Below the pieces are notes generated by a model. It had not been told where the DNA came from. It saw only the letters and a list, made by a program, of their open reading frames with translations, and ran no database searches. A stretch of 64,000 bases of DNA from Dactylellina haptotyla (taxonomy: Eukaryota > Ascomycota > Orbiliomycetes > Orbiliales > Orbiliaceae): contig CM062379.1 of NCBI GenBank assembly GCA_031310005.1, positions 2,976,001 to 3,040,000 on the forward strand. The letters are read 5' to 3'. The position numbers and the translations under genes are program-made. This document shows, piece after piece, positions 4,607 through 9,081 of the stretch; position 1 is the stretch's first letter; each line of letters opens with the position of its first letter.

Positions 4607-7600
4607 TCAAAGTTCTTGTTTCACTTCAACCCCAGACCCTTTGTGTGCTCCGCTCCCGCAGGAGCAATTCTGCCCACAGCTGCAAGGCTTCCCCGCGCTC
4701 TTACATCCACATCCTTCGGCTCCCTCACTCTTGAGCCCTTCCTTGGTCCCTCCACAAGAACAACTCGCTCCGCAAGTGCACGGTTTCCCTGCGCTCTTAC
4801 ACCCACAGCCCTCCGTGGATGCCTTCAGCCCTCCTCCTCCACAAGCACAATCTTTCCCACAGGTGCACGGTTTCCCTGAGGTCTTGCACCCGCATCCTTC
4901 CGCTCCGCTCTTCAAGCCTCCTCCCCCGCATTTGCAATCTGGCCCACAGGTGCATGCCTTGCCCGCGCTCTTGCAGCCACAGTCCCCACCGACCACCTTA
5001 TCCTTCTTCCCACAGCCGCAGCCACCGACATCCGAAGCCAACACTCCAAGCTTCACCTTCCTCTCCTGGTTGACTCTTTTCAAAACTCCCAATCTCTCCT
5101 CCGTGACCCTGATGGCCTCATCAACCTGTCTCCCAACCATCCCCGGGTCCAACCCTCCACTCTGTCGTCCAACCTGTGATTCCATCCCCTTTCCTTCCCG
5201 TTCGTACCGTCTGCCAACCCTCTCGTCGAAGCTCAAAGCTTCAGATATCCCCGCTCGATCCTCCAACCAATCCCACAACCCCGCTTCCTCCCTCATCCAC
5301 ATCTCATTCAAAAGCTCCCGCTCACCCTTCCTCAACCTCGCCGGATCCAACCCACCGCGTGCGTCGCCCCATATCGCCCGTGAGAGACTCATCGACAACA
5401 AAATGATAACAACCGTGACGAATATTCCCGCGCCGAATTCTCCCACCAGAGTCGTAACGGGATCCATAATCGGCGCCAACATGCCCCATTTCTGCGCCGC
5501 GGACGCGGCAGTAGAAACGGCGGGTGTAGTAGGTGACGCGGCCGTCGGAGAGGCGTTATCTCGGCTTCCTCTTCTCTTCTTCCTTCCTTTCCCTGCAATC
5601 GCAACCGGTTTCTTGGCTGCGAATTCGCGTTTCAGCGCGTTCAGTAGATCTTTCGTGTAGCCTACTTGTCCGTCATTGGCGCCCTTCTCGATAGGTCCTG
5701 TATATAAGATATTAGTCGCACTGTTTTTCAAAAGCATATACATGATATCAAAGTAAAGAAGATGATATACCTTTAATCCAACTTTTACCACTCCACTCAA
5801 CGGTACAAGTCGCCACGATCCGTGTTCCGTTGCCTTCTCCCCACATCAGACAAGTTCGATTGAGAACCTTGAAAACTCCTCCGCTAGGTACATCCGGTGT
5901 CTGTGTATACGTTACCACCGTCACGGCCTTCTCCATATCGTCCTGCTCGATTACCTCGGTAATCAAACACTTGGTGCTCTTCGGCCCGATACTGGCGTTC
6001 AACGGCTTGATGTAACTCAAATTCCTAGCCTTTTTCCCAGGATATTCTGTAGAATCTGCAAACTTGGCCTCGTTCGGAATAGACAATTGCTCCACCTTGG
6101 CATCTTCCGTAAGCAGTCTTGTAAGAAAAGCGAGCGAGCTATCGCCGTACAGCACGGAGAACACTTTGCCCACCGGCACATTAATGACCTCGTCGCACAA
6201 GACACGGTCGTAATGCGAGCTCTCGTCTCCGCAGACGGTTGGGGCATGCGTGGCGGGACCGGGGAAGTCTCCGCCCGCAGCACCCGCGTCTGCTGCAGCA
6301 CTAACAGCTCCTGTGGGCAATGCACCACCACCCATCCCCATAGAGCTCTTCTTCGACACGGATTTTGTCATCACGGGTGCTTCGATACCCGTAGCGAGAA
6401 TGTCATCGTCGTCGTCTCCCAGACTATCGTACTCCTCATCGTCGTCCCCGTATTCACTTCCATCTTCGTCATCCTCCTCATCGATATCATCACTCGCCGC
6501 TTCATCCTTATCTCCCAGTCGTGTTCCATTAATGGTATCCACGAGATTGGGGTGAATAGTCCTCCAAATCCCCAAAATCAAATCATATGTAGAATCTCTT
6601 GAAATGAAAGATGCAAATACATTCCTAGCGTGTAGGGTCTGTATCATGATCGCATTTGGAATAACTAACGCGGTCATCTTCCTCTCAATGGCTACAATCT
6701 CGTCGAACGAGATCACGAGAGTGGTAACCCATCCGAAAATATTGGAGTGGAAACAAATATGTCCGTTCGAAACGTACATCCTGCCCTGTAGCAGAATCTC
6801 TTTTTGCAGGGCACAGCCATAGTCCTCGATAAGGTTATCGTCAAGTGGTACACTCTTGAACAGCGTATGGAAGTCTTTGTTTCTCTTGTGGTTGGCAGCC
6901 GCAAATGTAGCGGACGGTCGAATCATCGGTGGAGTGAGCGTATCGCTGCCCTGTGTTGTCGCACTGGCACCCCTTTCTCTCCTCTTCCTGCTCCCTCGCC
7001 GACCCAATATAGATTTCGCGCTGTCAGAACGCTGTCGTCCAAGGACCGCGCTATCGTCATCGTTCAGCTGCACTTGTGACGGGGTGCCCACCGCCTTCTC
7101 GTAAAGTACGGTATCGAATGATTTGTCGCCTAAAATACCGCCTGCAGATTTGGGAATCTGTCCGATATCTTCCTCTTTATCACCCACGAGCCCCAGGCCG
7201 TGCAAAACCGCAGGTTCGGGCATTTCGAGATCGGCGGTGCTGTTTGGTCGGCTCCGTCGCTTGCGAATGTCTCCGGCGCCGGGTGTTGTGATACCCAAAG
7301 ATCCCAAGCTGAGCTCTCCTTGTCCGAGAGTTTCCACGGCGAGCGGCTTTCGCTCTTTTTCATCGGCCGAGTTACTGTTGCTCTTTCCTGGAGTCGCGGG
7401 TTGGGAGGTTCCAGAGTCGGCTCCGGAGTTTGCGAGTCCTGTGTTGATACTTCCGGGCTCCGATCTCTTCCCCTTAACGTTGGGCGCTAGCGAAGTGTTG
7501 GCAATAGTATTGCTAAATTGAGACGCGGCGGTTTGAGCAGCCGAGAACATGTTGCTAAAGAAGCCAGTTGCGGCATTGCCACCGTTAACTGTTCCGGCGG

Positions 7601-9081
7601 TCGGTGTTTGCTGAGGGGTGGGGACTTCAATTGTCGGTGTGAGTGGTTTATACCCATCTTCTGGGAAGGACGATTGTGATAATTTACTAGGTAACTTGCT
7701 AACGCTGCTGCCCCTCGCCCTCCTGGTAATAATTGTGCCAGGGGGGTCGATAGGGGTTGGAGGAGTGACAACTGTATCAGGTTTAGCGATTGTCGACGCG
7801 GCGTCGGTTGGTTGTAATGTTAGCAAAGTGCGGGGGCTCACGAGATCCTCGTTCCCAGAACCAGAGGCGTTGCTGGCCGTACTGTCGGATCTTTTTTTGC
7901 GATTTATGCCGAGCAGGTTGCCGATAACTATTCCAGACGCGAGAGTTGGGGTTACGGAGCCGCCTGGTGTTGGAGAGCTATCTCTAGAGCCCGTGGAGCC
8001 TGCTGGGGATGTGGAACGGCGGACGGGTCGGCCGTCAGGAGTGACTTGCAATTGAGTAGATCGCGAAGAGGTGGAAGGTTCTTCGATTGAGGTTGAAATG
8101 CTGATCGGGAAGGTAGCTGTGCTAGCGAGTGACTTGGAGCCAGGCTCCGAGGCCACGAGACCTGGTTCGAAGGTGATGGAAATACTATCCATCATTTTTT
8201 GAAGCATTAGCACGGATAGCCACAACAATCGAATGAATGTACCATTCGATTGAGAGAGTGTGTGAAAGTGGAATATATGCAAGAAACCCCTCCTAAAAAA
8301 ATAAAAAATAAAAAAATAAAAAGTAGAAATAGGAATTAAAGAAATAAGAAATAAGACAAGTCTGGGCAGTTGCAGAATAATATAAAACGGACGGTAAATG
8401 TCTGATTCCAAATTATAGGAGAGATCTGTTAATGCCAGGGACGGAACCGAATCTAAGTATAGTTCCTAGACCAGAGGGTCAAGGATCTTCTTGTGGACAG
8501 ATTCAGAACAATGGGGGAGGTTAGAGGATGCGAGATCCCCACCGTTCAGGTCCCATCTACTTCACGACAATGCGTTTGGTAGGTCGAAGCAGGTTGGCGC
8601 GCCGAATGGCTACGGTACGATATACGATATGCGAAATAGCGTGGAAGGGGAAGCGAGAAAAAGAGAAGGGCTGGCGGCGAACTAAAACTTACGCATCATG
8701 TTCAGTCTCATTTGAGACTTCGCTTTCAAGGCTACCTGTGATGGAATTCCGCCTGCTCTTGGGAAGTTTATCTATCGATAAGCCACTCTCGAGAGCTTCC
8801 TTCCGTTCCTTCCTCTCAGCCCGCCTCTTCCGAATCTTGTCGATATAGCTGGTGCTGCTACCCTTGTTGGTGGAGGCGTTTTCGTTGGAAGACAAGCTTA
8901 GCGAGGACCCGTTGTCGGCAGCCTGGACGTTGAGGTTTTGAGAGGATTTCTTCCTCTTAGCCTTGGAGATGACCCGCGAGATCGGAGAAGAGGAGGGCCC
9001 GTCGGGAGCAGAGACGGTGGTCGTGATTGACGGGATGGAGGTTGTCGATGGGGTCAGCGATGTTGTGGAACCGGTCGACAT
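4607..9081 (-). CDS. GRAM-VASt membrane-contact-site sterol-transfer protein with metallothionein-like C-terminal repeats
   Basis: Three exons on the minus strand, 9081-8693, 8184-5771 and 5697-4607, join in frame to 1297 residues. Residues 1-550 are Ser/Thr-rich and disordered. A GRAM (PH-like) domain lies near 557-680 (KDFHTLFKSVPLDDNLIEDY, GRMYVSNGHICFHSNIFGW). A VASt StART-like domain starts near 779 (HYDRVLCDEVINVP, KCLITEVIEQDDMEKAVTV). One transmembrane helix lies near 1018-1040 (IFVTVVIILLSMSL). This is the layout of LAM/Ysp family proteins, which sit in the ER at membrane contacts and move sterols between membranes. After a helical segment (LWDWLEDRAGI, EEAIRVTEERLGVL-like) where relatives usually end, the frame continues for about 135 residues containing 26 Cys: one short CGC motif and four copies of CGCK[ST][AS]GKxC[TS]CGxxCxC. 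Intron 1 is long for a fungus (508 nt). Confidence 0.88.
4640..5023 (-). repeat. Four metallothionein-like Cys-rich repeats inside the LAM-like CDS
   Basis: In frame with the transmembrane domain there are four units of about 27-30 residues, each with six Cys arranged as CxC-x6-CxC-x3-CxC. Gly/Leu/Lys spacers (GGGGLKS, GGGGLKA) separate the units. Another CGCG precedes the first unit. CxC clusters with Gly, Lys and Ser are the hallmark of fungal copper metallothioneins. The repeats differ mainly at third codon positions (TGTGGGTGT, TGCGGGTGC, TGTGGATGT and TGTGGCTGC for CGC), so the protein sequence, not just the DNA repeat, has been kept. Metal binding is inferred. Confidence 0.88.

Follow-up and report, generated by a model that had tools for sequence, protein, structure and literature searches.

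A predicted sterol-transporter gene that runs into a cysteine-rich tail

The window, a stretch of 64,000 nucleotides from the orbiliomycete fungus Dactylellina haptotyla (contig CM062379.1, positions 2,976,001 to 3,040,000), carries on its minus strand, at 4607-9081, a gene encoding a protein of 1297 residues. This protein joins the domains of a LAM/Ltc-type sterol transporter to a C-terminal tail of 139 residues (4610..5026, minus strand), 26 of which are cysteines arranged in CxC pairs. A sequence-only reading of the locus had claimed that the frame of the membrane anchor continues without interruption into some 135 residues with 26 cysteines. This is confirmed: from the transmembrane helix (5449-5390) a single open frame leads through the tail to the stop codon at 4607-4609.

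The gene model has three exons (9081-8693, 8184-5771 and 5697-4607), introns being called from donor, branch-like and acceptor sequences. Exon 1 (8693..9081) is an open frame that starts with the ATG at 9081, encodes the N-terminal region and meets a GTAAGT donor at 8692. The inferred intron 1 (8185..8692) contains this donor, a CTAAT branch-like site and a TAG acceptor ending at 8185; further in-frame acceptors are present, and the junction retained agrees with that of the annotated D. haptotyla protein H072_3632 (P0001), which has the same start and identical residues, ETEHDA-ISITFEP, across the exon 1-2 junction. Exon 2 (5771..8184), recognised from its open frame, its translation and its Pfam matches, encodes the GRAM domain and most of the VASt domain. 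Intron 2 (5698..5770), also inferred, has a GTATAT donor, a CTAAT site and an ACAG acceptor, and the protein aligns with P0001 across the junction. Exon 3 (4607..5697) is open down to the stop codon.

An assembly error deleting a stop codon had been raised as a possible source of the fusion. No sign of one was found: P0001, which is 98% identical, agrees with the window protein as far as the first cysteine units, and the proteins of other species read on. The 39.8-Mb assembly has the stretch once, with no stop inside. We also considered an antisense frame of 401 residues on the plus strand (4455-5660), which overlies the tail, and rejected it: codon-position constraint follows the minus frame, of which the antisense frame is judged to be a mere shadow.

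The body of the protein belongs to the LAM/Ltc family

The proposed LAM/Ysp-type identity holds. The GRAM domain (residues 566-675, 6549..6878, minus strand) matches Pfam PF02893 with an expectation value (E) of 8.8e-27, and the single VASt/StARkin domain (residues 791-944, 5669..6203, minus strand, split by intron 2) matches PF16016 with E 1.3e-42. Chains of the yeast YSP2 and LAM4 sterol-binding domains in the PDB match the protein with E 5e-34 to 1.3e-27, the YSP2 StARkin domain being the best (5e-34). A transmembrane helix follows (residues 1018-1037, 5390..5449, minus strand; mean hydropathy 2.24), with a net charge of +8 over the 60 residues on its N-terminal side and of -3 over the 60 on its C-terminal side. 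The same asymmetry is present in 11/11 orbiliomycete sequences, and fits a cytosolic N-terminus and a luminal C-terminus. Thus a GRAM domain, a VASt/StARkin domain and a single C-terminal membrane helix with a predicted cytosolic N-terminus are all there. The short luminal C-terminus that is usual, though not strictly defining, for the family is not: 260 residues lie past the helix, 139 of them forming the Cys-rich tail.

Between helix and tail lies a segment predicted to be helical and luminal (5027..5389, minus strand). An AlphaFold2 model was made for the orthologue P0002, from an alignment of 26 of 147 proteins chosen by hand with P0002 first. Its mean predicted local distance difference test score (pLDDT) is 49, with most of the VASt region at 63-91, and this region matches the Lam4 and the ergosterol-bound Lam2 StARkin structures. 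Past the membrane helix the model shows three helices (about 54-85 in blocks of 10 residues), and the tail is without structure (about 30-47), as would be expected of a part that folds on metal. Elsewhere in the genome, a second VASt gene is found on contig C8 near 2499 kb, with no Cys-rich frame of at least 110 residues listed there; judged by their translations, its frames look BAR-PH-GRAM-VASt-like.

The tail is built of four metallothionein-type units

The tail contains 26 Cys, 38 Gly, 19 Lys and 1 His, and no Phe, Trp or Tyr; for a protein with 1.2% Cys (an assumed figure), so many cysteines in 139 residues would have a probability of about 3e-23. A leading CGC pair is followed by four units of six cysteines, each with a 19-residue core, CGCK[ST]xGKxCxCGxxCxCG. 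On the minus strand the cores occupy 4925..4981 (unit 1), 4838..4894 (unit 2), 4751..4807 (unit 3) and 4655..4711 (unit 4), with start-to-start spacings of 87, 87 and 96 nt.

Pairwise comparison of the four cores gave proportions of synonymous differences (pS) of 0.49-1.12, versus 0.09-0.17 for nonsynonymous ones (pN), and third codon positions held 58 of the 94 core differences summed over the six pairs. High pS, low pN and the third-position bias together point to constraint on the frame as protein, and so indicate that the repeats are under selection at that level; the cores being short (19 codons) and the pairs non-independent, the comparison is indicative and gives no precise measure.

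The description of the tail as metallothionein-like agrees with its CxC pairing, composition and unit spacing. It has the high content of paired cysteines without aromatic residues; it does not match a Pfam profile, nor is it a small free-standing protein. Judged by these features the tail may be called a metallothionein in kind, and by profile match it may not.

Every listed orbiliomycete orthologue with a readable end has a tail

Of 7999 candidates scored in a search with residues 560-1155, 1618 proteins reached E<=0.001, and the best 120 of these were listed; a second search, with residues 1010-1297, found 49. The two lists together comprise 13 orbiliomycete proteins and 134 others. The best 13 matches were taken as orbiliomycete, 12 by name and P0011 by its 72% identity; the class of the named relatives other than D. 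haptotyla is assumed, and the tree agrees with it. In this tree of 24 sequences, the window protein and 11 named orbiliomycete sequences form one clade with 100/100 support, in which the window protein adjoins that of D. haptotyla.

Tail counts leave out P0001 (because of its annotated splice), P0011 (a fragment) and P0013 (which ends before the membrane helix). Among the matches listed, 10/10 orbiliomycete orthologues whose sequence can be read past the luminal helices to the C-terminus have a Cys-rich tail, of 38-176 residues and 4-26 cysteines (20, 26, 22, 20, 8, 26, 26, 26, 4 and 26 in P0002-P0010 and P0012, respectively). All 204 tail cysteines of these 10 orthologues belong to CxC pairs, with no isolated cysteine. 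In the 134 non-orbiliomycete proteins of the same lists no Cys-rich tail was seen, the last 200 residues holding 0-2 cysteines, or 5 in P0071. The expectation that relatives stop shortly past the helices therefore fails for the other Orbiliomycetes, and the tail appears to be an orbiliomycete trait among the matches listed.

Tails of the Arthrobotrys type repeat a CQCGK... motif, unlike the Dactylellina-type repeat. Cysteine number may therefore have grown more than once in these tails. In five Arthrobotrys/Orbilia tails (P0003, P0004, P0005, P0007 and P0008), an N-x-S sequon stands right after a GCGCK stretch, in the form CKN[ADET]S; such sequons would fit a luminal tail.

A putative KDEL-type signal ends most tails

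The last four residues of the window protein, KQEL (4610..4621, minus strand), resemble a KDEL-type retrieval signal of the endoplasmic reticulum (ER). Among the 11 sequences (the window protein and its 10 orthologues), a [KH]xEL end is kept in 9, on tails that otherwise diverge: KQEL in six (the window protein, P0002, P0003, P0004, P0007 and P0012), KEEL in P0005, HGEL in P0008 and KKEL in P0009. P0010 and P0006 end with KQEV and VPGR. When the 11 sequences are anchored at their C-terminus, pairwise identity, read inwards from -1 to -4, is 0.65, 0.82, 0.38 and 0.65; from -5 to -18 it is 0.05-0.16. According to one review (PMC9220330), positions -1 and -2 weigh most for the KDEL receptor, and changes at -3 or -4 act more mildly.

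The genome has an Erd2-type receptor gene at one place (two matches). Frames ending in [KHRDASNQ]xEL were sought in 24 loci of two families, a scan which shows that such ends exist and not how frequent they are. Ends seen in the genome are HDEL on BiP and PDI, KDEL on another thioredoxin-family protein and KEEL on an FKBP-family protein, these proteins being named by family match. A further end, HEEL (L069), is close to another thioredoxin match but in a different frame, and could be part of a separate exon or gene.

The sequence-only reading had placed the tail in the ER lumen. This placement is well supported by the conserved [KH]xEL, by the charge asymmetry in 11/11 sequences and by the topology predicted for the family in two papers (PMC4463742, PMC12493155), the former describing LAM proteins as predicted to be cytosolic apart from short luminal regions.

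The signal may be older than the tail. Five of nine named Pezizomycete orthologues (P0016, P0017, P0019, P0022 and P0049), which are tail-less, end with -EL; the nine were chosen by genus name among the named sequences. Over the 134 other proteins, 11 end with -EL, versus 0.76% in the local dipeptide background (P 8e-9, a figure that is overstated since related sequences are treated as independent). The stricter PROSITE pattern, [KRHQSA][DENQ]EL, fits only 2 of the 134. The -EL ends of tail-less orthologues suggest that the luminal terminus may be older than the Cys array. In the simplest reading, the array arose in front of this terminus; it is also possible that retrieval of LAM proteins by the KDEL receptor predates the tail.

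Other CxC-rich loci of the genome

The pattern CxCGxxCxC occurs at 56 places in the genome, versus 25 for the reversed pattern. Thirty-eight of the 56 were read (30 loci and 8 fetched separately; L009-L011 and L033 through overlapping loci only): four are in the window gene, five in two other CxC-rich frames, two in a copper-regulator-like protein, and the others in low-complexity sequence or as single motifs.

The two other CxC-rich frames are free-standing putative genes, with start codons chosen by hand. One, L024 (G000:C3 near 494,200-494,550), has 153 residues with 29 Cys and ends GGCGCKSGGECKCGPGCRCGEKL; the other, L030 (G000:C3 near 3,846,860-3,847,290, that is at 3.847 Mb), has 176 residues with 35 Cys. 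Like the tail, they have many tandem CxC pairs, but neither a KxEL end nor a fusion to GRAM-VASt. The copper-regulator-like frame (L013/L014, G000:C1 near 4,492,280-4,492,640) has two CxCGxxCxCxxCxxH motifs, which we take to resemble the copper-sensing repeats of Mac1/GRISEA-type regulators.

Away from the gene, the window contains an AT-rich island at 18001-27000, with a GC content of 0.22-0.24 and a CpG observed/expected ratio of 0.21-0.59; elsewhere, the GC content is 0.41-0.54 per 3 kb. The TpA/ApT ratio in the island is only 1.04-1.08, a weak sign of repeat-induced point mutation.

Discussion

On balance, we favour the view that a LAM/Ltc-type sterol transporter has had its ER-luminal end extended, in the Orbiliomycetes, by a metallothionein-type array placed before a KDEL-type signal, and that this array serves as a tethered metal buffer. 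The GRAM and VASt domains would lie on the cytosolic side and carry sterol between the ER and a second membrane, which is probably the plasma membrane, with the single membrane helix as the ER anchor. The luminal helices would probably aid clustering, by analogy with GRAMD1b, whose luminal helix drives complex formation (PMC6905856); in yeast, the C-terminal region of Ysp2, including a predicted luminal domain, targets it to puncta (PMC4463742). In the lumen, the CxC array would bind a thiophilic metal, Cu(I) or Zn(II) being the likeliest, and [KH]xEL would retain the protein in the ER by way of the Erd2 receptor. The case for the luminal topology is strong, metal binding by the tail is likely, and the tail may also be coupled to sterol transfer.

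Several observations weigh against this view. The tail alone has no match to a Pfam family (E<=1) or to a PDB chain (E<=1), and none of 329 database candidates reached E<=0.001 with it, which its composition and the length limits of the search may explain as well as a true absence. Its similarity to the two free-standing frames is weak beyond cysteine placement: shuffles that preserve the cysteines score as high in 9/500 and 12/500 cases, so common descent does not follow. KQEL is not among the HDEL, KDEL and KEEL ends of the other ER-type proteins inspected in the genome, and our search of open-licence literature returned no paper joining KQEL with the ER. The tail of Orbilia brochopaga (P0006) has only 8 cysteines and no KxEL, and that of Dactylella cylindrospora (P0010) has only 4 and ends with KQEV; either these models are imperfect, or the protein tolerates a small number of cysteines and an end that departs from KxEL. 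The ER lumen is oxidising, and may favour disulfides over metal. Finally, the annotation of H072_3632, the D. haptotyla protein with 98% identity in the core, has most of the tail spliced out and ends GGDCGSLSQQTQK, and the window gene has GTAAGA donor-like sites within its repeats 3 and 4 (4800 and 4704).

The main alternative, which we regard as a serious though clearly less probable one, takes the CxC array for a thiol-disulfide module of the ER and not for a metal store; its dithiol/disulfide cycling would buffer redox or cross-link LAM proteins into clusters. CGC peptides mimic PDI, and CGC pairs recur in the window tail; luminal placement and the strict CxC pairing of the 10 orthologue tails, with zero isolated cysteines, fit such a module as well. 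The six-cysteine unit, however, has a metallothionein-type spacing and a layout like that of the free-standing CxC frames, and the tail has no Pfam match at all and is predicted to be unstructured in P0002.

A role of the tail mainly in trafficking or as a spacer, its length and KxEL being what matters and the Cys repeats a tolerated low-complexity expansion, seems improbable to us. It would account for the wide variation in length and cysteine number over the 10 orthologues, and for the peak of conservation at [KH]xEL in the C-terminus-anchored alignment; however, the pairing of 204 cysteines out of 204 and the constraint on the repeats are unlikely for a neutral spacer.

Splicing out of the tail had been named beforehand as an outcome that would count against the fusion, and it was found in the H072_3632 gene prediction only, and not in ten other models. 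That the tail is absent from the mature protein, spliced out as in that annotation and as the GTAAGA sites in repeats 3 and 4 might allow, or else left untranslated, is the least probable explanation of all, since ten other orbiliomycete models run into Cys-bearing tails (8/10 ending with -EL), the repeats are constrained at the codon level, and the window reads TGCAAG rather than a GT donor at the site which, by inference, corresponds to the D. haptotyla junction.

Beyond the tethered metal buffer that we prefer, the array might also act as a sensor of the metal or redox state of the ER, setting transporter clustering or contact-site activity; sterol flow between the ER and another membrane would then be governed by the copper, zinc or thiol status of the lumen. 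This is a speculation to which we give perhaps one chance in a few.

Comparison with known systems

Among the titles and abstracts of open-licence literature listed, we found neither a metallothionein-LAM fusion nor any case of luminal metal or redox state acting on a LAM protein.

With the yeast LAM/Ltc proteins (Ysp2/Lam2, Lam4, Lam5 and Lam6) and the animal GRAMD1/Aster proteins, the window protein shares the succession of GRAM domain, VASt/StARkin domain and C-terminal membrane helix. One paper (PMC12493155) describes the yeast LAM proteins as having "a short C-terminal part" behind the membrane domain, whereas a long Cys tail is present here. The [KH]xEL end is shared with KDEL/HDEL-bearing ER proteins such as BiP, PDI and the FKBP family, but here it stands on a membrane protein, and as KQEL.

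Classical fungal copper metallothioneins, such as that of Neurospora, are small, free and cytosolic, and metallothioneins in general are usually viewed in this way. The likeness of the tail to them consists of the CxC pairs, the CxCxxxCxC spacing and a Gly/Lys/Ser-rich composition without aromatic residues; the difference is that four units are here fused to a membrane protein and predicted to be luminal. A membrane-tethered, KxEL-bearing array in the ER lumen would be a new way of holding metal in the secretory pathway and, if the proposal is true, its attachment to a sterol transporter throughout the orbiliomycete species listed would link the metal or redox state of the ER lumen to sterol distribution within one molecule.

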